Shown: positions 11,608 through 64,000 of the stretch, one piece after another
Position numbering within the stretch: position 1 is the stretch's first letter
Layout of the letters: each line of letters starts with the position of its first letter
The notes under the pieces: model-generated
The model's input: the letters and a program-made list of their open reading frames with translations, nothing else
What the model was told of the DNA's origin: nothing
Database searches by the model: none
Program-made: the position numbers and the translations under genes
Source of the DNA: Azospirillum fermentarium
GTDB lineage: Bacteria > Pseudomonadota > Alphaproteobacteria > Azospirillales > Azospirillaceae
Assembly: GCF_025961205.1 (NCBI RefSeq)
Contig: NZ_JAOQNH010000001.1
Coordinates: 954,001 to 1,018,000 of the forward strand
Direction: 5' to 3'
Length of the DNA stretch: 64,000 nucleotides

Positions 11608-12901
11608 CCGCCGCCTATTTCGTCGTCGGTGCCAACCACCGCACCTGTTCCGGTGCCGTGCGCGACGGGCTGACGGCGGAGGAACCGGAACTGCCGGCCC
11701 TGCTGGCCCGGCTGCGCGCGGCGGGGCTGGAACAGGCGGTGTGGCTGTCCACCTGCGACCGGGTGGAGGTGCTGGGCGTCCACCCCCGCCCCGCCGACGC
11801 CGCCCGGCTGGTGACGGAAATCCTGGCCGAACGGGCCGGCGTTCCGGTGGATGGGCTGGCCGGGCAAGTGTTCATCCAGACCGGCGACGGGGCGGTGCGC
11901 CACGTCTTCGCCGTCGCCAGCTCGCTCGACAGCCAGATCATCGGCGAGCCCCATGTGCTGGGGCAGGTGAAGGATGCTCACCGCCTGTCCGCCGCCGCCG
12001 GCCTGACCGGCCCCGAGCTTGAGGCGCTGTTGCAGGCCGCCTATGCCGCCGCCAAGCGGGTGCGCAGCGAAACCCCCATCGCCGAGGGCGCCACGTCGGT
12101 GGTGGCCGCGGCGGTGCAGGTGGCCCGCGACGTCCACGGCGGGCTGGACCGGCGGGCCGCCCTGCTGCTGGGGCTGGGGGACATGGGCGGGCTGGTGCTG
12201 GACGGCCTGCGGGAGGCGGGGCTGACGCGGGTATCGCTGGCCGCCCCCAACGACCGCCGGGGGGAGACGGCGGCGCGGCGGCGCGACGCCCATTTCGTGC
12301 CGTGGGCCGATGTGGGGGCCGCGCTGGACGCCGCCGACATCGTGGTCACCGCCGCGGGCCTGGGCCGTTACACCCTGACGCCGGAGCCGGTGAAGGTCGC
12401 GCTGAAGCGGCGGCGCTACCGCCCGGTGTTCGTCATCGACGCCGCCATTCCCGCCGACGTGGACCCCGGCGTGGCGGCGCTGGACGACGTGTTCGTCTAT
12501 GACCTGGCCGATCTGGAGCGGGTGGCGCTGCAGGGCCGGGTGGGGCGCCAGGGCGCGCTGCAGGCCGCGTGGCGCATCGTGGACGAGCAGATCGCCGCCT
12601 TCACCCGCGGGCGGGCGGAACGGGCGGCGGTGCCGGCGGTGGCCGCCCTGCGCGCGCATTTCGAAGCCGAACGCCGCCGGGTGCTGGCCGAACACGGGGG
12701 GCTGGACGCCGGCGCGGCCACGCGCCTGCTCATCAACCGCCTGCTGCACACCCCGTCGGAGGCGCTGAAGGCCATGGCGGCGGGCGGGACGGCGGAAGGC
12801 GGGGCGGAAGAGGCGGGGCGGCTGTTGACCGCCCTGTTCGGTTTGGACCATACAGACCGGCAGCGCGGCCGGGACGATGCGGCGGAAGGGGACGGATCGA
12901 C

Positions 12902-25810: not shown

Positions 25811-26030
25811 GGCCTGCCCTTTCCTAATAAGGCGTGTTGCTAAGAAGGGGATGTGAGGATGGGGCGCCTTATAGCCCACGCCAACGTATAGGGCAATGGG
25901 CGGGCATTCCTTTGTCGCATGCCTGTCATGCCCGTTTCCGGCCGGGAAGATGCGGCAAAGCCCTTGCGTATCTCCGGCGCTCTGGCTAAAAACCGCGCCA
26001 CCCCGGCGGCGACGCCGGTGGTTCGGAGAA

Positions 26031-26107
26031 GCGCCCGTAGCTCAGCTGGATAGAGCATCAGACTACGAATCTGAGGGCCGGAGGTTCGAATCCTTCCGGG
26101 CGCGCCA
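26031..26107 (+). tRNA. tRNA-Arg (anticodon ACG), copy 1
   Basis: A 77-base cloverleaf: acceptor GCGCCCG pairs with CGGGCGC, anticodon loop CTACGAA (ACG, expected to be read as ICG after deamination), T-loop GGTTCGAATCC, and an encoded CCA end. It is identical to the copy at 29600-29676 on the other strand. Confidence 0.97.
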
Positions 26108-26440
26108 TCCTCCCCGATAAAAAGCAGGAACATGGAAGCGGGCGGCCGGTTGGCCGCCTTTGTCGTTTCCGGGTTTCCTTCGGTATCCCCCCGCGCGCTA
26201 TCGGCTCCGGGACCGGCCTGCACGAGGACCGGCCCGCGCCCCTCCCGCCAGAACGGGGCGTCGTACCGAGGCTTGCCGATCTCGACGATCGGGCCGGACA
26301 CGGTGACCTTCTGGCCCAGTTCCTCGAGCGTCGTCTGCCCGCGCGGCGGGCTGGGGAGGTTCAGCGTCATTGGCCGGCACAACGGGCGCGGCCTGCCGTG
26401 GCGTGGGAGCTTCTCCATCCCGATGGCTGCCCGGTGGGAA
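26108..26440. other. 333-base gap after tRNA-Arg with a possible gene fragment
   Basis: No intact gene is supported. On the minus strand a frame from about 26370 down to 26200 reads like real protein (TTLEELGQKVTVSGPIVEIG, KPRYDAPFW). It then runs on through simple sequence into the complement of the tRNA, which suggests the 5' part of a decayed gene. I cannot name it. Confidence 0.3.
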
Positions 26441-29458: not shown

Positions 29459-29599
29459 AGGACAAGCCCCCAGTCTGTTGCCAACCGCGTCGTCGGCACA
29501 TGGGAAGCCGGGAAGGGGATGCCAAGGGGAAACCCGAAAGGGTGCGGGCATGAAAAAATCCGGCCAGGGCCGGATTGCAGCCCCCGGAAGGGGGGAGGA

Positions 29600-29676
29600 T
29601 GGCGCGCCCGGAAGGATTCGAACCTCCGGCCCTCAGATTCGTAGTCTGATGCTCTATCCAGCTGAGCTACGGGCGC
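29600..29676 (-). tRNA. tRNA-Arg (anticodon ACG), copy 2
   Basis: Base-for-base identical to the 26031-26107 gene, including the encoded CCA, but on the opposite strand. The identity extends about nine bases past the 3' end (TCCTCCCC). Expected to be functional. Confidence 0.97.
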
Positions 29677-29766
29677 TTCATCGTATGGTCCGCCGCACGC
29701 TGTGTGGCGGGAGCCGTCTTGTAGCGGAACCGTGGGGGCGGTGCAAGCCTTTTCGTCATCGTTCCG

Positions 29767-53578: not shown

Positions 53579-54388
53579 GTGGAACACAACGACGTCGATT
53601 CCCATCGCATCCGCCTGCACGGGCCGGAGGGGTTCGAGGGGATGCGGCAGGCGGGCCGTCTGGCCGCCGAAACGCTGGACTTCATCACCCCCCATGTCCA
53701 GCCGGGCGTCACCACGGACGAGCTTGACCAGCTCTGCGCCACCTACATCCGCGACCACGGGGCGATTTCGGCGCCGCTGGGCTACCGCGGCTATCCCAAG
53801 TCGGTCTGCATTTCGATCAATCACGTGGTCTGCCACGGCATCCCCAGCGACAAGCGGCTGCGCGACGGCGACATCCTGAACATCGACGTGACGCCCATCG
53901 TCAACGGCTGGCACGGCGACGCCAGCCGCATGTATCTGTGCGGCGAGGTGGGCGTGAAGGCGAAGAAGCTGGTGGACGTCACCTATGACGCGCTGATGCT
54001 GGGCATTTCCAAGGTGAAGCCGGGCGCCACCCTGGGCGACGTGGGCTACGCGATCCAGCAGTTCGCCGAGGCCCAGCGGTTCTCGGTGGTGCGGGATTTC
54101 TGCGGTCACGGGGTGGGACGGGTGTTCCACGAACCGCCGTCGGTGCTGCACTATGGCCGTCCCGGCCAGGGGGTGGTGCTGAAGGAAGGGATGATCTTCA
54201 CCATCGAGCCGATGATCAACGCCGGCCGGGCGGATGTGAAGATCCTGGGCGACGGCTGGACCGCGGTCACCAAGGACAAGTCGCTGTCGGCCCAGTTCGA
54301 ACATTCCATCGGCGTCACCGCCGAGGGATGCGAGATCTTCACCCTGTCGCCCAAGGGTTTCACCAAGCCGCCCTATCCCGCAGCATAA
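53579..54388 (+). CDS. map: type I methionine aminopeptidase
   Basis: Removes the initiator methionine from new proteins; essential in most bacteria. The 269-residue pita-bread fold shows the metal ligands Asp in LNIDVTPI, Asp in HGDASRMY, His in CGHGVGRVFHE, Glu in FTIEPM and Glu in QFEHSI. It starts with GTG at 53579, 18 bases after sfsA. A strong terminator follows, and the next gene is convergent. Confidence 0.96.
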   Translation: MEHNDVDSHRIRLHGPEGFEGMRQAGRLAAETLDFITPHVQPGVTTDELDQLCATYIRDHGAISAPLGYRGYPKSVCISINHVVCHGIPSDKRLRDGDILNIDVTPIVNGWHGDASRMYLCGEVGVKAKKLVDVTYDALMLGISKVKPGATLGDVGYAIQQFAEAQRFSVVRDFCGHGVGRVFHEPPSVLHYGRPGQGVVLKEGMIFTIEPMINAGRADVKILGDGWTAVTKDKSLSAQFEHSIGVTAEGCEIFTLSPKGFTKPPYPAA

Positions 54389-54413: not shown

Positions 54414-54447
54414 AAAGGCGCGCGGGGCCAGCCCGTGCGCCTTTTTT
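54414..54447. terminator. bidirectional terminator between map and the S24 regulator gene
   Basis: A stem of about 13 pairs (AAAGGCGCGCGGG with CCCGTGCGCCTTT, one G-U) followed by more T. It reaches the stop codon of the convergent regulator gene and can serve both. Confidence 0.85.
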
Positions 54448-55078
54448 ACTGGCTGGCCCAGATGATGCGGGCCATCCACGCCATGTCGGCGCGGGGGATC
54501 ACCCGGTCGGGGTGGGCGCGGTTGATGGACATCAGTTCCACCCGCGTGGCGGTTTCCCGCGTCAATTGCTTGGCCATCACCTCGCCGTCGCGGGTGCGCA
54601 GCACCACGCGGTCGCCGCGGCGGATCTGGGCGGCGGGCGACACGATGATGGTGTCGCCGTCGCGGTACACCGGATCCATGCTGTCGCCGGCAATCTCCAG
54701 CGCATAGGCATGCGGGTCGCCCAGGCTGGGGAACATCAGCTCGTCCCAGCCGGTGCCGGCGGGAAAGCCGGCGTCGTCGAAATAGCCGGCGTTGCCGGCC
54801 TGGGCATAACCGATGACCGGCACCCGCTGCATGGCCGAGGGGCTGGCCGTGTCGCCCACCAGCGCCACGAATTCCCCGAACGAGGCGCTCGTCGCCTCCA
54901 GGATCTTCGAAATGCTCTCGGTGGACGGCCAGCGGAGTTTCCCGTCGCTGGTGGTCCGCTTGGACTTGTTGAAGGTGGTCGGGTCAAGCCCCGCGCGGCG
55001 CGCCAGCCCGGACGCCGAAAGTCCGCTCTGCGCCGCAAGCCGGTCGATGGCCCGCCATATGTCCGCGTGTTTGAGCAT
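54446..55078 (-). CDS. S24-family phage-type repressor (LexA/CI-like)
   Basis: A 210-residue repressor: N-terminal helix-turn-helix (AAQSGLSASGLARRAGLDPT) and C-terminal S24 autopeptidase. The catalytic Ser133 (EIAGDSMDP) and Lys170 (EVMAKQL) are 37 residues apart, as in E. coli LexA. An Ala-Gly bond at 94-95 (YAQAGNAG) sits 39 residues before the serine, close to the CI spacing, so RecA-stimulated self-cleavage looks possible. It is divergent from the phage head module, with an inverted repeat and a promoter between them, the arrangement of a prophage immunity region. Confidence 0.86.
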   Translation of the reverse strand: MLKHADIWRAIDRLAAQSGLSASGLARRAGLDPTTFNKSKRTTSDGKLRWPSTESISKILEATSASFGEFVALVGDTASPSAMQRVPVIGYAQAGNAGYFDDAGFPAGTGWDELMFPSLGDPHAYALEIAGDSMDPVYRDGDTIIVSPAAQIRRGDRVVLRTRDGEVMAKQLTRETATRVELMSINRAHPDRVIPRADMAWMARIIWASQ

Positions 55079-55115
55079 GGGACAATAGTCTCACAACAGG
55101 ACGGGACCGTCGCTA

Positions 55116-55135
55116 GGAACATATTCATATTTTCC
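55116..55135. promoter_or_regulatory. operator-like inverted repeat
   Basis: GGAACATAT-TC-ATATTTTCC is a 9-2-9 inverted repeat with one mismatch. It lies between the divergent S24 repressor gene and the head module and directly abuts the -35 box at 55136. Probably the repressor's own operator. Confidence 0.6.
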
Positions 55136-55175
55136 TTGACGCGGGGCTCAAAACTAGAACATAAAAAGAACGAAC
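55136..55175 (+). promoter_or_regulatory. head-module promoter with SOS-type box
   Basis: TTGACG (55136-55141) with ACATAA or CATAAA at 55159-55165 is a plausible promoter. GAAC-ATAAAAA-GAAC (55157-55171) overlaps its -10; on the other strand this is GTTC-N7-GTTC, the alphaproteobacterial LexA box. A third GAAC follows at 55172. Confidence 0.55.
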
Positions 55176-55274
55176 TTTCCACCAAACCGATAAAGACCGC
55201 CGTCATTGGATCGCCGAAAGCGGCAATACGCCGCAGAAGGCGGCCATTTTTCACGGCTGAGAGGAGATTGTTTC

Positions 55275-55682
55275 ATGCAACAGGCATTCCCCGCCCCCCG
55301 CCCGTCCACGGCCCCGCCCTTGGCGGTCCGGGCGCCCTTTGCGATGGAAGGAATTCCTTTTCCCACCGCCGCCGAGGCGTGGTTCTGGGCGGTCCAGGCC
55401 CAGGTCGCCAAGAATGACGGGGCGCGGGTGGCCGCCGGTCTGGGGCTGGTGGTCCGCCCGTGCGAACCGGGGGACATCATCCGCGCCGTGGACCGGCTGC
55501 ACCGCCGCCGGCAGCTCACCCGCGACCATCTGCACGTGCTGGTCCATTACGGCCGCCGGATGGACGCCCCCAAGCCCGACCGCTGGCGCGAGCAGCGCGC
55601 CGCGTCCCTGTGGCGGGAAGCCTTTGCCGTCATCGCCCCGGCTCTGGTGGAAAAGGGCATCGTGGCCGCGGGGACCGAATGA
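55275..55682 (+). CDS. phage-module protein 1, unknown function
   Basis: A 135-residue protein, first in the module. A proline-rich start is followed by a compact helical domain (PFPTAAEAWFWAVQAQVAKN, then GLVVRPCEPGDIIRAVDRL and LTRDHLHVLVHYGRRMD, ending with a basic SLWREAF helix). I have the impression of a conserved alphaproteobacterial phage family but cannot name it. No nuclease or ATPase motif is seen. GAGGAGATTG precedes the ATG. The stop overlaps the next gene by four bases (ATGA). Confidence 0.72.
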   Translation: MQQAFPAPRPSTAPPLAVRAPFAMEGIPFPTAAEAWFWAVQAQVAKNDGARVAAGLGLVVRPCEPGDIIRAVDRLHRRRQLTRDHLHVLVHYGRRMDAPKPDRWREQRAASLWREAFAVIAPALVEKGIVAAGTE

Positions 55683-56053
55683 CCGCCGCCGCGCCGCGCC
55701 GGGCTTGGGTCGCCTTTGACGGGCGGGCGGAGATCGGGTGGCTGCGGCTGCTGAAACCCGGCTTCCGCCACTGCTTCGTGGTGGTGGAGGACGGCGGGCG
55801 GTGGATCGTCGTCGATCCCCTGTCGCCCTTCACCCATGTGGCCCTGGTGACCCCGCCGGGCGGGGCCGGGGTGGGGGACTGGCTGGCGGGGCTGGGGCTG
55901 ACAGTGGTGGAAACCACCCTGTGCCGCCCCGCCACGCGCCCGGCGCCGTGGGCGCCCTTCACCTGTGTCGAGGCGGTCAAGCGCGTGCTGGGGCTGCGCG
56001 CCGCCCGGATCGTCACGCCGTGGCAGCTCTACCGCCACCTGGTCCGGTGCTGA
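55679..56053 (+). CDS. phage-module protein 2, possible papain-fold enzyme
   Basis: A 124-residue protein whose pattern, a His in KPGFRHCFVVVEDGGRW and later a Cys in FTCVEAVKRVLGL, resembles small NlpC/P60-like or permuted papain folds in which His precedes Cys. Phages use such enzymes for cell-wall or structural roles. This is an inference from two motifs. It overlaps the previous gene by four bases and lies 59 bases before the portal gene, so it belongs to the module. No signal peptide. Confidence 0.6.
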   Translation: MTAAAPRRAWVAFDGRAEIGWLRLLKPGFRHCFVVVEDGGRWIVVDPLSPFTHVALVTPPGGAGVGDWLAGLGLTVVETTLCRPATRPAPWAPFTCVEAVKRVLGLRAARIVTPWQLYRHLVRC

Positions 56054-56112
56054 CCTCCCCCGTTTTCCTTTTCTTTCTTTCCGATTGTCCGCTGCGAGCG
56101 AGAGGACCACCC

Positions 56113-57732
56113 ATGAGTGGAAGTCAGACGACCGCGCACGCCACCCGTGCAGCACCCGGCCCGGTGCGCGCCCGTTCCCCGGATGCCGGGAAGGCCGCCG
56201 CCCTGCTGGACCGCTTCGCCCAGGCCAGCCGCCGGCGGGCGGGGTGGGAAAGCCATTGGCAGGATTGCTACGACTGCGCCCTGCCCAACGGCCAGCCGTT
56301 CCGCGCCGGCGGCACGCCGGGGGACCGGCGGGTGGACCGGCTGTTCGACGGCACCGCCCCCGACGGGGTGGAGCAGCTTGCGGCCAGCCTGCTGGCGCAA
56401 CTGACGCCGCCGTGGTCGCGGTGGTTCGGCTTCGTGCCGGGGCCGGAACTGACGGATGTGGAGCGTGACCGTATCGCCCCCATGCTGGACCGCGCCGCCA
56501 CGGTGGTGCAGGCCCATTTCGACCGCTCCAACTATGCGGTGGAAGCGCACCAGGCGTTTCTCGATCTGGTCACCGTGGGCACGGCCTCGCTGCTGCTGGA
56601 AGAAGCGCCGCCGGGGGAGCCGTCGGGCCTGCGCTTCACCGCCGTGCCGCTGGCCGACGCGGTGCTGGACGAGGGGCCGCAGGGCCGGCTGGACATCACC
56701 TTCCGCCGTGCGGACCTGACGGTTCCGCAGATCCGCCATCGCTTTCCCGGCGTCACGTTGCCCGCCGCGGTGATGCGGGCGGGAGCGCAGGAGCCCGACA
56801 CCCGCTTTCCGGTGGTGGAGGCGGTGGAGCCCGACGGCGTGTCCTACCGCTGGACCGTGGTACTGGACGGCGGCGAGGGTGAACCGGCGATCCTGGCCGA
56901 CGGGCGCTTCGCCCAGTCGCCGTTCCTGAACTTCCGCTGGTTGAAGGCATCGGGAGAGGTCTATGGCCGATCCCCGGTGATGAAGGCCCTCCCCGACATC
57001 CGTACCGCCAACAAGGTGGTGGAGCTGGTCCTGAAAAATGCTTCCATTGCCGTCACCGGCATCTGGCAGGCCGACGACGACGGGGTGCTGAATCCCGCCG
57101 CCATCCGGCTGGTGCCCGGCACCATCATTCCCAAGGCGGTGGGGTCGCAGGGGTTGACGCCGCTGGCCAATCCGGGGCGGTTCGACGTGTCGCAGCTGGT
57201 GCTCGACGACCTGCGCGCCCGCATCCGCCATGCGCTGCTGGCCGACCGGCTGGCCCCCCTGAACGATGCCCGCATGACCGCCACCGAGGTGATGGAGCGT
57301 GCTGCCGAGATGGCACGCCTGCTGGGTGCCACCTATGGCCGGCTGCAGGCGGAACTGCTGACGCCGCTGCTGCTGCGCGCCGTCGCCATCCTGCGCCGCC
57401 GGGGGGAGATTCCCGACATCGCCGTCGATGGCCGGCTGGTGGAGCTGCAATACCGCTCGCCGCTGGCCCAGGCCCAGGCCCAGCGCGACGCCCAGGCGAC
57501 GCTCCATTGGCTGGAGTCCGTGCGCGGGCTGGGGCCGGAGGCGCTGGGCGTGGTGGACGCCGCCGCCACCGCCCGCTGGCTGGGCGAAGCCTTCGGCGTG
57601 CCGGGCCGGCTGATCCGCAGCGCCGCCGCCGCGGCGGATGCGGATCAGGCCAAGGCCGAACCACCGCCACCATCCGCACCATCCCCCCCCATCCCCCCTC
57701 CCGTCCTGCCGGAAGAGGTGATCCATGGCTGA
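56113..57732 (+). CDS. podovirus-type portal (head-tail connector) protein
   Basis: A 539-residue portal subunit of the T7/BPP-1 type; twelve form the ring through which DNA enters the head. Recognisable stretches are WESHWQDCYDCALPNG near the start, DGTAPDGVEQLAASLLAQLTP with WSRWFGFVP, the YGRSPVMKALPDIRTANKVV core, and LNDARMTATEVMERAAEM near the crown helix. The end is Ala/Pro-rich. The length is near the 500-560 residues usual for the family and the frame is intact. The next gene starts eight bases before its stop. No terminase gene precedes it. Confidence 0.88.
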   Translation: MSGSQTTAHATRAAPGPVRARSPDAGKAAALLDRFAQASRRRAGWESHWQDCYDCALPNGQPFRAGGTPGDRRVDRLFDGTAPDGVEQLAASLLAQLTPPWSRWFGFVPGPELTDVERDRIAPMLDRAATVVQAHFDRSNYAVEAHQAFLDLVTVGTASLLLEEAPPGEPSGLRFTAVPLADAVLDEGPQGRLDITFRRADLTVPQIRHRFPGVTLPAAVMRAGAQEPDTRFPVVEAVEPDGVSYRWTVVLDGGEGEPAILADGRFAQSPFLNFRWLKASGEVYGRSPVMKALPDIRTANKVVELVLKNASIAVTGIWQADDDGVLNPAAIRLVPGTIIPKAVGSQGLTPLANPGRFDVSQLVLDDLRARIRHALLADRLAPLNDARMTATEVMERAAEMARLLGATYGRLQAELLTPLLLRAVAILRRRGEIPDIAVDGRLVELQYRSPLAQAQAQRDAQATLHWLESVRGLGPEALGVVDAAATARWLGEAFGVPGRLIRSAAAAADADQAKAEPPPPSAPSPPIPPPVLPEEVIHG

Positions 57733-57985
57733 CCCCCGCGATTGGCCGTGGGAGGCACCATCGGCCCCCGCCGCCGGAGCGGCGCCCGCCCAGGACGCCG
57801 CGTCTTTCGCCCGCTGCTTTTCCACTCCCGACGGGGTGCGGGTGCTGGCGGTGCTGCGGGCCTTGACCCTGGACCGCGCGCTCGGCCCCGACGCCCCCGA
57901 ACCCATGCTGCGCCACATGGAAGGCCAGCGCCATCTGGTCGCCACCATCCTGGCCCTGGCCGCCCGCGGCCATGGGCGCCCCTGA
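57725..57985 (+). CDS. Bbp19-like small phage protein
   Basis: An 86-residue protein overlapping the portal end by eight bases. The pattern CFSTPDGVRVLAVLRALTL followed by EGQRHLVATILALAA is that of the Bbp19 family of BPP-1-like podoviruses, usually found right after the portal gene. Its role in the virion or assembly is not known. The first 25 residues are Pro/Ala-rich linker. Position and pattern agree, so the call is fairly safe despite the small size. Confidence 0.75.
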   Translation: MADPRDWPWEAPSAPAAGAAPAQDAASFARCFSTPDGVRVLAVLRALTLDRALGPDAPEPMLRHMEGQRHLVATILALAARGHGRP

Positions 57986-58017
57986 TCCCCTCCCCCCTTT
58001 CGACGGAGACAGACACC

Positions 58018-58710
58018 ATGCAGCCCGTCCGCCCCGACACCCCACCCGCCATCCCTGCCGTTCTTGCGCCGCCCGCGGCCCCGCCGGCTCCGGCGCCCGA
58101 TCCCGCGCTGGCCCCCTTCATCGACCCGGCCACCGGCGCGGTGCAGGTGGAGGCGCTGGCCGCCGCCTACCGCGACCTCTGCCGCCGGGTGGGGGTGGTG
58201 CCCGAAACGCCCGACGCCTATGGCATCCAGTGCGGCCATGGCCTGTTCCAGCCGGACCCCGACATCAACGCCCGCCTGCACGGGGCGGGTTTCTCCGCCC
58301 AACAGGCCCAGCTCGTCTATGATCTGGCCGCCGAACGCATGATGCCGCTGATCCGGCAGGTGTCGGTGCAGCTCCACGCCGACCAGGAGATGGAGCGGCT
58401 GGCCGCCCAGTTCGGCGGCGAAGCCCGCTGGCGCGAGGTGTCGCGCCAGATCCTGGCCTGGGCCCGGCGCTCCCTGCCATCCCCGGTGGTGGAGGCGCTG
58501 TCCACCAGCTATGACGGGGTGATGGCGCTCTACCGCATGATGAGGGGGGAGGAGCCGGCCACCCTCAGCCCGCCCGCCGGAACCGGCGGGGCCGGCGATG
58601 CGTCGGAGGTCTATGGCCTGATGCGCGACCCCCGCTATTGGCGCGACCGCGACCCGGCGGTGGTGGCGCGGGTGACCGAGGGGTTCCGCCGTCTCTACCC
58701 CGGCGGGTGA
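58018..58710 (+). CDS. phage capsid-assembly/scaffold-like protein
   Basis: A 230-residue protein in the place where T7-like and BPP-1-like phages encode the scaffolding protein, between portal and capsid genes. The start is Pro/Ala-rich (proline runs to about residue 40). A helical body follows with GIQCGHGLFQPDPDINARLH, GFSAQQAQLVYDLAAERM and AQFGGEARWREVSRQIL. The last block (YGLMRDPRYWRDRDPAVV, then VTEGFRRLYPG) resembles the C-terminal capsid-binding segment of such proteins. The expected major capsid gene does not follow. Confidence 0.72.
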   Translation: MQPVRPDTPPAIPAVLAPPAAPPAPAPDPALAPFIDPATGAVQVEALAAAYRDLCRRVGVVPETPDAYGIQCGHGLFQPDPDINARLHGAGFSAQQAQLVYDLAAERMMPLIRQVSVQLHADQEMERLAAQFGGEARWREVSRQILAWARRSLPSPVVEALSTSYDGVMALYRMMRGEEPATLSPPAGTGGAGDASEVYGLMRDPRYWRDRDPAVVARVTEGFRRLYPGG

Positions 58711-58725
58711 GTGCGAAAAAGAGTG

Positions 58726-58760
58726 CCCTGCTGCCGGAATCTCGCGCTCCGGCAGCAGGG
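58726..58760. terminator. strong hairpin closing the phage module
   Basis: CCCTGCTGCCGGA and TCCGGCAGCAGGG form a perfect 13-bp stem 16 bases after the last module gene. A T5 run follows only on the minus strand, so its direction is unclear. It may still end module transcripts before the GGDEF-EAL gene. Confidence 0.5.
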
Positions 58761-58813
58761 CTGCCGCATATGGACCTTGCGTGTCCTTCGGGGTCTAAGG
58801 CACTTTCGCCTCT

Positions 58814-61162
58814 ATGATGCTGCGCCGGAAATTCCGCCTCGTTGCCTTGATCGGTCTGGCCGCCTGCCTTCTGGCGGCCGTGCCCGCGCTTTACCTGCTC
58901 TACAGCGGCCTGCTCGTCGAACGGGTGCGGCTGGCCGGCGGGCTGGTGGATTCCGCCCGCGCGGTGATGAGCGATTACGAGCGCGCCGCGGTGGACGGCG
59001 ACCTGATCCGCACGGAGGCCAAGGCCCGCGCCCAGACCGCGCTGCGCGGGCTGGCCGGCGGGCCGTTCCAGCTTGTGCTGTTTCCCGACGGCACGCTTCC
59101 CCCCGGCTGGCCGGGGGAGGGGCGCAGCATCGCCGCGTCGGGCCTGTTCGAGCCGTGGGGGTGGATGGTGGCGGTGTCGGCCAACACCGCCGACCTGCGC
59201 CACGACTTCACGGCGGAGGCCGCGGCCTTCTTCCTGTTCCTGGTGGTGCTGCTGGCGGCGGCGTGGCCCCTGTCGGCCTTCGTCTCCGACCAGTTGGTGG
59301 GGCCGCTGGAGGATCTGGCGGCGCGCATGGGCCGCATGACCCGCGGCGAGATCGCCAAGCCGGTGCCGGGGCAGGAACGCGGCGACGAATTCGGCATCAT
59401 GGCCCGCGCGCTGGAACATTTCCGCCGCAACGCCGCGACCATCCTGGACCGGGACGAGCGGCTGTCGGGCATCATGAACAACGTGGGCGAAGCCATCGTC
59501 GTGGTCAGCGAGGCCGGGGTGGTGGAGGAGCACAACCCCGCCGCCGAACGGCTGTTCGGGCGCGGCGGGGCGGCGCTGGCGGGGCAGGTCTTTTCCGGCC
59601 TGTTCACCACCGCCGACCAGGGCCGCGTGCTGGAAGCCCTGGTGGCCCAGCGCGGCGGGGACGGCGACGGCGTTCCGGCGGACAGCGCCGGCCAGCGCCC
59701 CGCCACCCGGATGGAGGCGCTGGGCATCGACGCCGACGGCCACCCCGGGCAGCGGCGGGAGGTGTCGCTGGCCGTCACCCGGCTGGAAGTGCAGGGCCGC
59801 CGCAGCTTCATCTGCGTTCTGGCCGACATGACCGACCGGCTGCGCCACGAACGCGAACTGCTGCGGCTGGCCACCCGCGACCGGCTGACCGGGCTGCCCA
59901 ACCGGGCGCTGGTGGGGTCGCTGGTGGATGCGGCGGTGGAGCGGTCCCGGCGCAGCGGCCGGCGCTTAGCCCTGCTGTGCCTGGACCTGTCGCGCTTCAA
60001 GCTCATCACCGACACCCTGGGGCACGAGGCCGGCGACATCCTGCTGCAGGAGGTGGCCCACCGCATCCAGGGGGCCGTGCGCTCGTCCGACACCGTGGGC
60101 CGCATCGGCACCGACGATTTCGCCATCCTGCTGGACGAGGTGATGGACGGGGACGAGGCGGCACAGGTGGCCGGGCGCATCCTGGCCGCCTTCGAAACCC
60201 CGGTGGCGCTTTTGGGCACCGAGCATTACGTGCGCCCGTCGCTGGGCATCGCGCTGTACCCCGAACACGCCGACACCGGCGCGGACCTGCTGCGCGCCGC
60301 CGACACCGCCCTTTACGCCGCCAAGCGGCAGGGGGGGCGGCGCACCGCCTTCTTCCAGCGGGCCATGGCCGATCAGGCGCGCCGCCATCTGGCGCTGGAC
60401 CGCGACCTGCGCGCGGCCCTGGTACGGCGGCAGTTCCAGCTTCACTACCAGCCCAAGGTATCGCTGCTGGATCATTCGCTCCAGGGGTTCGAGGCGCTGC
60501 TGCGCTGGGACAAGCCCGAACACGGCATGGTGCCCCCCGGCGACTTCATCCCGGTGGCCGAGGAAACCGGGTTCATCGTGCCGCTGGGCGACTGGGTGCT
60601 GGACGAGGCGTGCCGGCAGCAGCGTCAGTGGCTGGACGCCGGTGCGGACCCGCTGCCGGTGGCGGTCAACATCTCGCCGCGGCATCTGCGCCAGCGTACG
60701 GCGGCGGAATTTCTGGCGATGCTGGACCGCCACGGCCTGCCCCACGGCCTGATCGAGCTGGAAATCACCGAAGGTGCCGTGATGCAGGACATGGATCACG
60801 CGCTGGAAGTGCTGGAGGTGCTGAAGGCGGCGGGCGTCCGGGTGGCGGTGGACGATTTCGGCACCGGCCATTCGTCGCTGAGCTATCTGAAGCGGCTGCC
60901 CGTCACCACGCTGAAGATCGACCGGTCCTTCATCAACGGCATCCCCCACGGGCGCGAGGACGCCGGCATCGTGTCCACCATCATCGCCATGGCCGACATG
61001 CTGGGGCTGGAGGTGGTGGCCGAGGGGGTGGAGCGGCCCGAACAGGCCCATTTCCTGCGCCACCACAATTGCCTGATGGTCCAGGGCTGGCTGACCGGGC
61101 GCCCGGTCCCCGCCGCCCAGGCCGAAGCCCTGCTGGCCGACCGCACCCGCCAGCGGGCGTAA
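58814..61162 (+). CDS. membrane GGDEF-EAL protein with degenerate GGDEF site
   Basis: A 782-residue c-di-GMP protein. Order: TM1 (about 8-30), a short periplasmic sensor, TM2 (about 137-158), HAMP, PAS (about 215-350), GGDEF and EAL. The cyclase signature is GTDDF (432-436, RIGTDDFAILL) instead of GGDEF, so synthesis is unlikely and it may only bind GTP. The EAL domain keeps FEALLRW, NISPRHL, ELEITEGA, VDDFGTGHSS, LKIDRSFI and VAEGVE, predicting phosphodiesterase activity. Net effect: lowering c-di-GMP, the opposite of the cyclase at 42855. It is unrelated to the phage genes just upstream. Confidence 0.92.
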   Translation: MMLRRKFRLVALIGLAACLLAAVPALYLLYSGLLVERVRLAGGLVDSARAVMSDYERAAVDGDLIRTEAKARAQTALRGLAGGPFQLVLFPDGTLPPGWPGEGRSIAASGLFEPWGWMVAVSANTADLRHDFTAEAAAFFLFLVVLLAAAWPLSAFVSDQLVGPLEDLAARMGRMTRGEIAKPVPGQERGDEFGIMARALEHFRRNAATILDRDERLSGIMNNVGEAIVVVSEAGVVEEHNPAAERLFGRGGAALAGQVFSGLFTTADQGRVLEALVAQRGGDGDGVPADSAGQRPATRMEALGIDADGHPGQRREVSLAVTRLEVQGRRSFICVLADMTDRLRHERELLRLATRDRLTGLPNRALVGSLVDAAVERSRRSGRRLALLCLDLSRFKLITDTLGHEAGDILLQEVAHRIQGAVRSSDTVGRIGTDDFAILLDEVMDGDEAAQVAGRILAAFETPVALLGTEHYVRPSLGIALYPEHADTGADLLRAADTALYAAKRQGGRRTAFFQRAMADQARRHLALDRDLRAALVRRQFQLHYQPKVSLLDHSLQGFEALLRWDKPEHGMVPPGDFIPVAEETGFIVPLGDWVLDEACRQQRQWLDAGADPLPVAVNISPRHLRQRTAAEFLAMLDRHGLPHGLIELEITEGAVMQDMDHALEVLEVLKAAGVRVAVDDFGTGHSSLSYLKRLPVTTLKIDRSFINGIPHGREDAGIVSTIIAMADMLGLEVVAEGVERPEQAHFLRHHNCLMVQGWLTGRPVPAAQAEALLADRTRQRA

Positions 61163-61295: not shown

Positions 61296-64000
61296 TTACG
61301 CCAGTGTCAGCTCGTTGGTCCGGGTCTCTTCCAGGTGCCGGACCAGCCGGGCCAGTTCGGCGTGGTCCAGGGGCTTGGCCACATGGCCGTTCATGCCGGC
61401 GGCGGTGCATTCGGCCAGATCCTCATCCAGCCCCCCGGCGGTCATGGCATAGATGGGCAGGGTGCCGGCGGGCGGCGGCAGGCGGCGGATGCGCCGGGCG
61501 GCCTCCAGCCCGTCCAGCACCGGCATGTTCACGTCCATCAGCACCAGATCATAGGCGTGGTGCCGCACGGCATCCACCGCCGCCGCCCCGTCACCCACCA
61601 CATCGACGGTGCAGCCCAGCCCGTTCAGCAGCACCATCACCAGCCGCTGGTTCAGGGGCTGGTCCTCGGCCACCAGCACGTGGAACGGCTGGGGCAGGGC
61701 GGTGCACAGGGTTTCTTCCGCCGCCGGCAGCGGCGTCTTGCGGGGGGCGGGCAGGATGGGGGTGCAGGCCGCCGCCGGCTCGTCCGCCAGCCGCCCGGCC
61801 ACGCGTTCCAGCCGTTCTTTCAGTTCCACCGCCAGGAAGGGCTTGGAGATCATCGCGTACCCGCCTTCGGCCCCCGCTTCCCCCGCCACCGCGTGGCCGG
61901 CGAAGCCAGAGGTCAGCAGCACCGGAATGCCGGGGCGCAGCCGTTCGGCCTGACGCGCCAGCTCGGTGCCGGTCATGCCGGGCGGCATCACCATGTCGGT
62001 GAACAGAAGATCGACCGGCGCATCGCCGCGCAGGATGGTCAGCGCCTCGTTGGCGTTGGCGGCTTCCAGCACATGGTGGCCCCAGGTCTCCAGCAGTGCC
62101 GTGGTGCTCATGCGCAGCAGCGGATCGTCGTCGGCCAGCAGGATGGTCAGGGGCCGGCGGACCGGGGCCGGCTGCGGCGCCGGGCTGCAATGGGGCAGAC
62201 GCTCCACCGCGCGCCACGGCGGCAGGGTGACGGTGACCGTGGTGCCGACGCCGAGCTGGCTGCGCAGGGTCAGCACGCCGCCGTGCAGTTCCACCAGCCG
62301 CTTGGTCAGCGGCAGCCCCAGGCCCGTGCCCTCCACCCGGCGGTTGCCGGGGCTTTCCACGCGGGCGAAGGCCTGAAGCACGCGGTCCATGTCCGATTCG
62401 GGAATGCCGATGCCGGTGTCGGTCACCTCGATCACCGGGGATCCGCCCGGCGCGTGCATCAGCCGGATCGTCACCTCCCCGCCCGAAGGGGTGTACTTCA
62501 CCGCGTTGGAAATCAGGTTCAGCAGGATCTGGCGCAGCCGCTTCTCGTCCCCGCGCAGATAGCGCAGGCCGGTGGACCGCACCACGGTCAGTGTCACGCC
62601 CGCCCGGTTGGCGCGGGCCTGGAGCATGCGCACGGCGAATTCCACCGCGGCGTCCAGGTCCAGCGTGTCCTCATGCAGCGTCAGCATGCCGGCTTCGGCG
62701 CGGGCATGGTCCAGGATTTCGTTGATGAGTTCGAGCAGGTGCTGGCCGGAATCGCGGATGTTGACGGCGAAATCACGGTAGACCGGCGTGCCCACCGGTC
62801 CCTCCGCCTCCCGCGCGATGAGATCGGCGAAGCCGATGACGGCGTTGAGCGGCGTGCGCAGTTCGTGGCTGAGGCTGGCCAGGAAATCGCCCTTGGAGCG
62901 GTTGGCCGTTTCGGCCTGGGCGCGGGCGGCGGCTTCCTCCTCGCGGGCGGCCTGGAGTTCGCGGGTCAGCCGCGCCACGTCGGAGATGTCCATCAGCGCC
63001 ACCAGCCGCAGCGGCTGGCCCCCCGCCTCCGCCATGGTGGTTTCGGTCATGGATTCGACCACGGATTCCACGGCAAGCACCGTGCGGGTGGTGCCGTCGC
63101 GGCGGGTCAGGTCGGCTTCCCACGATCCCGGTCCCTGGCGGGGGGGCAGCACGGTGGCCGCGTCCCGCCCTGTCAGGTCAGCGGACTCCCACCCGGTCAG
63201 CCGGCAGAAGGCGGCGTTCACCCGCACCAGCCGGTTGCCGCCGCCCACCACCGCCAGCGCCGCCTGGGCCTGTTCGAACAGCGCCTCGGCAAAGGCGTGG
63301 GCGGCTTCGGCGGCGCGGCGGGCGCTGTTCAGCTTTTCCTCCACGCCCACGCGCACGGTGATGTCGCGCAGCACCGCCACGTATTCGCTGTCCTCCCCCT
63401 CGGCCCGGCGGATGGCGGCTTCGACCCACACGGGGTGACCGCCGGTGTGGATCGCCCGGCAGCGCACCACCGCGGACGGCGCGTCGGGGGTCAGGGCGGC
63501 GATGCTGGCGGCGACGGTGCTGCGGTCGTGGGGGTGCAGAAGCTCTTCCAGCGTCATCCCCCGCACATCGGCGGGATCGCGGCCCAGGATGGTGCGCGCC
63601 GCGTCGGTGGCGTGCCGCACCCGTCCGCCGGCGCCGATGCGCATGATGACGTCCTGGGCGTTGTCGGCCAGAAAGCGCAGCCGCTCCTCGCTGGCGGCCA
63701 CGCCCTGGGACGCGGCCAGCCGCATATGATCGCGCGACAGCATGATGCCCAGCAGCACGATGCCCACGGTGGTGGCCGGGAACAGCGCCGGCCCGCTGCG
63801 GGTGAGCACCAGCAGGGCCATATCCCACGTGGGCAGCAACAGCGCGCTGCACATCTGCGCCGCCGAGGCGATGCACCCCAGCGCCATCAGATGGCGCAGC
63901 GGCAGGCGTCCGTCCTTCCACACCGGAAACCGGCTGTACAGCAGCCCTGCCAGCCCCGCCAGGATCACCCCGGCCACGCCCGCGGGCGCCCCCACGCCGC
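61296..64000 (-). CDS. hybrid histidine kinase with two receivers (5' end outside window)
   Basis: The reading frame runs off the right edge; about 901 residues are seen. It begins within a multi-helix membrane sensor resembling the 5TM receptors of the LYT type (VAGVILAGLAGLLYSRFPV, PATTVGIVLLGIML). PAS domains follow (FLADNAQDVIMRIG; FEQAQAALAVVGGGNRLV). HisKA has LASLSHELRTPLNAVIGF, and HATPase has DTGIGIPESD with GTGLGLPLTK. The first receiver (LLFTDMVMPPGMTG) and the second (LVLMDVNMPVLDG) both keep their aspartates. No HPt is present in it, unlike the other two hybrid kinases here. Confidence 0.92.
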   Translation of the reverse strand, partial: GVGAPAGVAGVILAGLAGLLYSRFPVWKDGRLPLRHLMALGCIASAAQMCSALLLPTWDMALLVLTRSGPALFPATTVGIVLLGIMLSRDHMRLAASQGVAASEERLRFLADNAQDVIMRIGAGGRVRHATDAARTILGRDPADVRGMTLEELLHPHDRSTVAASIAALTPDAPSAVVRCRAIHTGGHPVWVEAAIRRAEGEDSEYVAVLRDITVRVGVEEKLNSARRAAEAAHAFAEALFEQAQAALAVVGGGNRLVRVNAAFCRLTGWESADLTGRDAATVLPPRQGPGSWEADLTRRDGTTRTVLAVESVVESMTETTMAEAGGQPLRLVALMDISDVARLTRELQAAREEEAAARAQAETANRSKGDFLASLSHELRTPLNAVIGFADLIAREAEGPVGTPVYRDFAVNIRDSGQHLLELINEILDHARAEAGMLTLHEDTLDLDAAVEFAVRMLQARANRAGVTLTVVRSTGLRYLRGDEKRLRQILLNLISNAVKYTPSGGEVTIRLMHAPGGSPVIEVTDTGIGIPESDMDRVLQAFARVESPGNRRVEGTGLGLPLTKRLVELHGGVLTLRSQLGVGTTVTVTLPPWRAVERLPHCSPAPQPAPVRRPLTILLADDDPLLRMSTTALLETWGHHVLEAANANEALTILRGDAPVDLLFTDMVMPPGMTGTELARQAERLRPGIPVLLTSGFAGHAVAGEAGAEGGYAMISKPFLAVELKERLERVAGRLADEPAAACTPILPAPRKTPLPAAEETLCTALPQPFHVLVAEDQPLNQRLVMVLLNGLGCTVDVVGDGAAAVDAVRHHAYDLVLMDVNMPVLDGLEAARRIRRLPPPAGTLPIYAMTAGGLDEDLAECTAAGMNGHVAKPLDHAELARLVRHLEETRTNELTLA

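Follow-up and report, generated by a model that had tools for sequence, protein, structure and literature searches.

What is a compact set of podovirus-like head genes doing under an S24 repressor in the genome of Azospirillum fermentarium, with neither capsid nor terminase beside it? The locus lies near the end of a window of 64,000 nucleotides (C1:954001–1018000 of this genome, G000), where the repressor gene is transcribed divergently from a five-gene operon. Our answer, to which we assign a probability of about 0.72, is that these genes form the head half of a DNA-packaging cluster, domesticated from a podovirus and most likely a vertically inherited gene transfer agent (GTA) that is controlled by the SOS response and is not homologous to RcGTA. 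The features of the head half and of the interval behind it are as follows (window positions).

54446–55078, − strand: S24 (LexA/CI-type) repressor, 210 aa (PF00717, E 2e-23; phrog_4, E 4e-27)
55109–55128, + strand: operator-like motif GTCGCTAGGAACATATTCAT, candidate S24 operator, conserved in aligned Azospirillum divergent promoters
55157–55171, + strand: LexA box GAAC-N7-GAAC in the o1 promoter, an exact N7 direct repeat
55275–55682, + strand: o1, operon gene 1, small helical protein, candidate late-operon antiterminator (Q21-like fold)
55679–56053, + strand: papain-like protein (permuted NlpC/P60 type, YiiX/TseH-like predicted fold, H31/C96)
56113–57732, + strand: portal, the head-to-tail connector (PF12236, E 1e-143)
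57725–57985, + strand: Bbp19-like phage protein (PF25181, E 5e-16), overlapping the portal gene by 8 nt
58018–58710, + strand: scaffold-like (T7 capsid-assembly) protein (PF05396, E 8e-11)
58725–58761, + strand: hairpin 3´ of the scaffold gene, perfect 14-bp stem (−32.6 kcal/mol, z −4.3)
58814–61162, + strand: GGDEF/EAL-type gene interposed in the cluster, named from sequence without a family search
61296–63995, − strand: histidine kinase-like gene, a 1002-aa open reading frame running past the window, named from sequence

A packaging cluster divided by the window edge

The capsid gene begins 642 nt beyond the window end (1018000) and is the single match in the genome to the podovirus capsid family phrog_3437 (E 1e-64). 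It opens a capsid half (C1:1018642–1027670, equivalent to L069:5642–14670) in which all genes lie on the + strand.

C1:1018642–1019457, + strand: capsid (major capsid protein, MCP; PF19821, E 1e-81)
after the capsid gene, + strand: decoration-like (cement) protein, 90 aa (phrog_18004, without function in PHROG)
after the decoration gene, + strand: tail tube A (phrog_394)
after tube A, + strand: tail tube B (phrog_376)
after tube B, + strand: 297-aa protein at the position of an internal virion protein, no family match
after the 297-aa protein, + strand: tailspike with a pectate-lyase-like domain (PF12708)
after the tailspike, + strand: large terminase (TerL; phrog_38, E 5e-67)
after the terminase, + strand: cell wall hydrolase (PF07486)

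A DUF952 gene and then a pyrD-like gene, the latter named from sequence, follow downstream of the hydrolase. The distance from the S24 gene to the hydrolase is 19.2 kb, including the interposed GGDEF/EAL-type gene and the antisense histidine kinase-like gene. With portal, scaffold, capsid, tail tubes A and B, tailspike and TerL, the cluster encodes a phage-like particle with packaging machinery. Scans of the cluster proteins against Pfam, PHROG and NCBIfam revealed no integrase or replication genes.

The preliminary description, which was drawn from the window, had reported a cleavage-competent-looking divergent repressor and five intact, tightly packed genes. Both points hold: the repressor matches PF00717 and carries the candidate cleavage residues described below, and all five frames are open, with an ATGA overlap between o1 and the papain-like gene and family matches for the portal, Bbp19-like and scaffold proteins. 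Its remark that an integrase is lacking extends to the whole cluster. The lack of capsid and terminase was an artefact of the window edge, since both are present beyond 1018000. The strong hairpin at which the module was said to stop is real as a local feature, but the capsid half resumes past the GGDEF/EAL-type gene and the kinase gene; on inspection of the sequence no T-run was found downstream of the hairpin, which is therefore not a textbook terminator. A fresh truncation or a dead prophage is refuted: all genus genomes tested carry an orthologue of the module, and the genes that seemed to be lacking were found. A recent partial copy of a complete prophage finds no counterpart in this genome, in which there is no second PF12236 portal.

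Conservation of the cluster in the genus and beyond

Portal and terminase genes were found in 37/37 Azospirillum genomes and the capsid gene in all 45 genomes of a larger genus set, mostly as single-copy orthologues. At the level of the order, the capsid was matched in 68 of 82 genomes and in 9 of 13 genera. The spacing of the halves varies: 17 of the 37 genomes have portal and capsid within about 7 kb of each other, 14 have them on a single contig with 17 kb or more in between, and 6 have them on separate contigs. Excision and replication as one unit would be impossible for a prophage divided into unlinked halves; that both halves are retained therefore speaks for a host function.

Across the class, 90 of 385 sampled genomes gave a match to the capsid query. 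These matches separate into a closer group with at least 53% identity (59 genomes from 35 families) and a more distant one with no more than 35%. The closer group includes genomes of 0.9 Mb, in which only the capsid was tested. Gene order was compared in the best 80 of 474 IMG/VR loci and the best 80 of at least 532 loci from named genomes. Most of them share the order S24 (divergent), o1, papain-like protein, portal, Bbp19, scaffold, capsid, decoration, tube A, tube B, spike and terminase, with an S24–TerL span of 9.6–19.3 kb (31 loci). Many loci are cut or miss single-gene matches, the terminase being an example (9/80 IMG/VR and 55/80 named-genome loci). Rearrangements were noted in five loci (L189, L340, L343, L344 and L349), where capsid and tail genes precede the portal gene or the S24 gene sits inside, and in L370 the spike match lies on the other side. 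The named hosts include Azospirillum, Niveispirillum, Oleisolibacter, Telmatospirillum, Caenispirillum, Roseospira, Terasakiella, Ferrovibrio, Elioraea and Skermanella.

Seven integrase- or primase-type queries gave no match inside the cluster bounds of these 160 loci; one integrase and one primase among them were PHROG-confirmed and the others were named by us, and other integrase types could escape such a search. Thirty loci, those with 4.5 kb of room or with pyrD present, were judged for a downstream pyrD-like gene, a rule that favours matches; 22 of them have one in the orientation of the terminase, 1.0–3.2 kb beyond it. Eight of the 22 fall outside the genus and include Oleisolibacter, Telmatospirillum, Niveispirillum irakense, Elioraea and Hyphomicrobiales UR115. 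That pyrD is found at the same place in hosts so far apart favours a single ancient insertion.

Descent and selection

Capsid distances follow RpoB distances with rho 0.65 among 27 genomes (the 30 best capsid matches minus three without usable RpoB), a value that none of 2000 permutations reached (best 0.51). The mean distance is 0.30 for the capsid, a figure biased low by the choice of best matches, and 0.27 for RpoB. In the two closest pairs, NG86 ratios of nonsynonymous to synonymous substitution rates (dN/dS) were 0–0.02 for S24, 0.05–0.07 for the portal, 0.07–0.12 for the capsid, 0.06–0.11 for the terminase and 0.07 for pyrD. Together with the distribution and gene order described above, these comparisons indicate mostly vertical inheritance of the cluster along with its host, under purifying selection, apart from the exceptions that are weighed below.

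Control of the operon

Two candidate brakes were recognized in the divergent promoter region. Sequence alignment places a candidate autocleavage site of the S24 repressor at A94-G95 and its catalytic residues at S133 and K170. Among 80 aligned rows, related rows included, A94 is conserved in 68, G95 in 69, S133 in 67 and K170 in 67. The candidate that this protein is the cell's own LexA was rejected, as it scores 32.9 bits against a LexA cut-off of 110.95 and a separate lexA is present. The repressor would bind GTCGCTAGGAACATATTCAT, whose sole mismatch-free occurrence in the genome is in this cluster; three other sites match with 3 mismatches.

The second brake is the LexA box, which corresponds to the alphaproteobacterial LexA motif GTTC-N7-GTTC as given in PMC3323433. 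It is the only exact N7 repeat between window positions 54001 and 64000; L069 has none, and one exact LexA box lies upstream of lexA in the same genome. The motif or its complement occurs downstream of the S24 start in 30 of 64 non-redundant regions drawn from 79 S24 homologues (71 full-length), 3 of the 30 boxes being off the common position. Control spacers of 3–6 and 8–13 nt gave 0–1 occurrences, and shuffled sequences a mean of 0.22 and a maximum of 2. One LexA half-site is altered in many Azospirillum loci. Given the LexA box and the S24 cleavage residues, both brakes should therefore fall in the SOS response.

The following sequence of events is proposed. LexA and the divergent S24 repressor would hold the operon off. 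Upon DNA damage, active RecA would cause LexA and S24 to cleave themselves, and o1, the papain-like protein, portal, Bbp19-like protein and scaffold would be made. The second half would supply capsid, decoration protein, tubes A and B, internal protein, tailspike and terminase, and the cell-wall hydrolase could free the particles. Because integrase and replication genes are absent and the genes occupy two unlinked loci in many species, the particle could not propagate itself, and the packaged DNA would be mostly that of the host. Particle assembly, SOS induction, DNA content and delivery to kin cells are steps that we infer.

The split loci (L382–L391 and L296–L309) show two further features ahead of the capsid gene: a conserved GC-rich inverted repeat with a T-run, and a conserved CCGACAACCGG..GGCGGAACG stretch; together they are a putative control element.

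Insertions into the portal and capsid genes

Five of the 37 Azospirillum genomes carry an insert that splits the portal gene. In four of them (G011, G029, G031 and G036; loci L047, L048, L049 and L046) the split falls at one site, residues 313–322. The elements at this site are 15–17 kb long, have a 13–14 bp direct repeat at their junctions and begin with an integrase-like gene. Nine proteins of the G011 element were scanned; PHROG matches were obtained for integrase, primase, portal, protease-capsid, connectors, small terminase (TerS) and TerL, and no tail gene was found among the nine, a layout that we take to resemble that of capsid-forming satellites. An insert of about 46 kb occupies a second portal site, residues 271–277, in G018 (L050/L051).

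The capsid gene is split in G021, G023 and G062 of the 45-genome set, and in 2/37 of the smaller set. Inserts in the capsid gene (L373–L381) measure about 39–43 kb in these three genomes and 11 kb in G105 and lie at three different sites, with repeats of 19 bp in G062 and 11–12 bp in G023 and G105. The larger ones are apparently prophages. Restoration of the capsid C-terminus by the inserted element was not seen in the four examined. Other damaged genes are an MCP fragment and a TerL in two pieces in G033, and a TerL in two pieces through a frame break in G003. Insertion at these genes marks the cluster as a dependable landmark. In the IMG/VR locus L183, an integrase match (position 12351, 578 bits to the integrase of the G021 insert) lies downstream of the capsid match and is probably part of another insert in the capsid gene.

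Accessory and interposed genes

No Pfam, PHROG or NCBIfam match was obtained for o1. Its AlphaFold2 model (mean predicted local distance difference test, pLDDT, 88) aligned in VIA-align with four Q21 entries (Z 6.3–6.6, root-mean-square deviation 3.2–4.3, 85–92 aligned; next entry 3.6), scores that lie under the level VIA-align deems safe for helical proteins, and Foldseek returned nothing significant (Q21 fold, E 1.4). On this weak match, o1 is possibly a Q-like late antiterminator. CcGTA uses an antiterminator that acts over its cluster (PMC11150451), which makes the idea reasonable but unproven. The papain-like protein likewise gave no match in the three family collections and nothing significant in Foldseek. 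H31 and C96 are invariant in 32 aligned sequences, and its model (pLDDT 91) aligned with 6v98 (Z 7.1) and YiiX (Z 6.2), both under the tool's safe level. The roles given here to o1 and the papain-like protein are putative.

The GGDEF/EAL-type gene stands directly after the scaffold gene in 13 of 14 intact Azospirillum loci (L032–L045). Outside Azospirillum, mostly no GGDEF gene lies between scaffold and capsid, although some loci have gaps of several kilobases there; the exception, L361, carries GGDEF-like (weak, antisense) and kinase-like matches in this interval. The gene was probably not in the ancestral cluster. The histidine kinase-like gene is interposed ahead of the capsid gene and is no particle component. 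A tRNA-Trp called by ARAGORN inside its frame (window 62564–62657) did not reach the Rfam gathering score and is probably false. Elsewhere in the window, a perfect 88-nt inverted repeat, whose arms at 26028–26115 and 29592–29679 are 3.5 kb apart, holds a pair of identical tRNA-Arg(ACG) genes, one on each strand.

Weighing the explanations

Several findings weigh against a conserved, SOS-controlled GTA. Capsid matches are missing from 14 of the 82 order genomes, including 7/7 of one genus, and in 9 of the 37 Azospirillum clusters the gene for portal, capsid or terminase is interrupted or truncated. The preliminary description had named absence or decay in close relatives, or a complete BPP-1-like prophage elsewhere, as grounds for refutation; the outcome speaks mostly against refutation, since no genus genome tested lacks the module and this genome has no second PF12236 portal, but these nine clusters are damaged. 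The inserts break genes while present, which is evidence against a constant need for the particle. No small terminase or holin was recognized in the cluster. In the repressor, Ser133 is absent from 13 of the 80 aligned rows and the Lys from 13; the rows concerned are probably L326, L332, L345, L347, L351 and their relatives, and these five are the smallest clusters (S24–TerL 9.6–10.9 kb). The recA locus of A. fermentarium has no exact LexA box. The LexA boxes do not account for control of the capsid half: an antisense kinase gene separates the halves in this genome, and of 17 split loci searched over 350 nt around the MCP, 16 lack a LexA box, the single exception being L304, with a box at the MCP start codon. 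Nine of ten contiguous loci also have none ahead of the capsid. Nearest neighbours in the capsid and RpoB comparisons agree for just 11 of the 27 genomes, and there is disagreement in the deep branches too, which leaves a residue of transfer or noise in this history. Close-pair dN/dS is high for the small genes (Bbp19 0.73/0.39, decoration 0.35/0.53, internal protein 0.54/0.19), and the medians over all pairs with dS <1 range from 0.13 to 0.43 (portal 0.15, capsid 0.21, terminase 0.38, pyrD 0.27), although in our view these are inflated where dS saturates.

The genomic evidence would fit equally well a conserved domesticated particle with another job, one that packages DNA but kills or lyses kin, as PBSX does, or releases cell contents. 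The tailspike and hydrolase genes are in keeping with such a role, and the FpGTA report voices the same doubt for its own particle, with PBSX as the precedent (PMC12946183). A pure killing device would not need the terminase, portal and capsid, which are kept with low close-pair dN/dS, and we noticed no tail-only variant in the loci inspected; we consider this explanation unlikely. We give less credence again to a very old defective or integrase-less prophage lineage that persists by chance and reinfection. The nine interrupted or truncated clusters, the losses in some genera and the incomplete agreement of the trees would suit it, whereas the presence of the capsid in 45/45 genus genomes, the pyrD neighbourhood common to several genera, the lack of visible integrase and replication genes, the retention of unlinked halves and the low close-pair dN/dS of the core genes do not. 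Capsids in the phage collection are also at most 48% identical, bar one 5-kb faecal contig at 58%. An ordinary temperate podophage prophage was rejected on the missing propagation genes and the vertical signal.

The window by itself, with no capsid beside the five genes, had invited the idea of a portal-based structure or satellite module that borrows a foreign capsid. This idea is now rejected as unsupported and very improbable: capsid, terminase and tail genes belonging to the cluster itself lie just past the window and occur in the same genomes, and no satellite integrase was found in the A. fermentarium cluster. The domesticated gene-transfer-type particle, another option of the preliminary description, is the one to which the gene content and its conservation point.

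Comparison with known systems

We found no description of this cluster in the literature, in a search that covered subscription papers and preprints thinly and thus leaves its novelty unproven. FpGTA of Faecalibacterium was the only podovirus-like GTA found in the literature since 2018 (PMC12946183), and it also has podovirus-like virion genes in small operons, of 10.5 and 5.5 kb and about 125 kb apart in one complete genome. It differs in its Gram-positive host and in that the available portion of its description gives no S24/LexA promoter. FpGTA particles were seen, whereas the Azospirillum cluster is known here from its genes; the two are compared by description, not by sequence. The text available of PMC10386132 concerns another podovirus module and contains neither "gene transfer agent" nor "Azospirill".

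RcGTA and CcGTA, the alphaproteobacterial type I GTAs, share with the Azospirillum cluster a virion cluster embedded in the host genome, and CcGTA also has a repressor and an antiterminator (PMC11150451). Control differs, with LexA/S24 in the Azospirillum cluster and RogA/GafYZ in RcGTA and CcGTA. By its marker, the cluster is not homologous to RcGTA. This marker is PF13547 (GTA_TIM), which we take to identify RcGTA-like (Rhodogtaviriformidae) clusters; in a control of 14 genomes it matched in Caulobacter alone. PF13547 was found in 36/385 class genomes and not in that of A. fermentarium. In none of the 385 does it occur together with the cluster capsid (59 genomes), where 5.5 were expected (P ~0.002, uncorrected for kinship). 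The marker occurs in 18 families and the capsid in 35, with one family common to both through a weak match. In agreement with this, in the part of PMC6821227 consulted, RcGTA-like clusters number 0 in Azospirillales, Rhodospirillales and Acetobacterales, in rows that begin with 13, 24 and 62, taken as genome numbers.

Other podophages and podoprophages with PF12236 and PF25181, of which BPP-1 is presumably an example, have the portal and Bbp19-like families in common with the cluster, and differ in that the Azospirillum cluster is without an integrase or replication module. The nearest named phage in the collection is Pelagibacter phage EXVC031P Hodr (capsid 48% and portal 37% identity), which differs in its 34-kb phage genome with genes of other functions and in the top TerL family (phrog_2 versus phrog_38). 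An unannotated 5-kb contig from human faeces that was deposited as phage (MT838907.1, L062) carries portal to tube B of the same family, with capsid and portal identities of 58% and 55%; it may represent DNA that a gut alphaproteobacterium packaged from its own genome.

If the cluster is a GTA, orders without a known GTA would own one, and with two unrelated GTA lines in a single class, the reasons for which bacteria maintain such particles could be tested directly. An SOS-controlled GTA in plant-associated Azospirillum should be easily induced. The reading also bears on an old report of A. lipoferum particles with about 10 kb of host DNA, which PMC3899980, in the portion available, assigns to RcGTA-like genes. 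More broadly, and at even odds, the Alphaproteobacteria may be split between two non-homologous ancient GTAs: the siphovirus-like RcGTA in some families, and a podovirus-type GTA under LexA/S24 in Azospirillales and Rhodospirillales-like lineages and, by the capsid only, in genomes down to 0.9 Mb. The latter would be a two-locus system in many Azospirillum, whose portal and capsid genes serve as integration sites for satellites and prophages.

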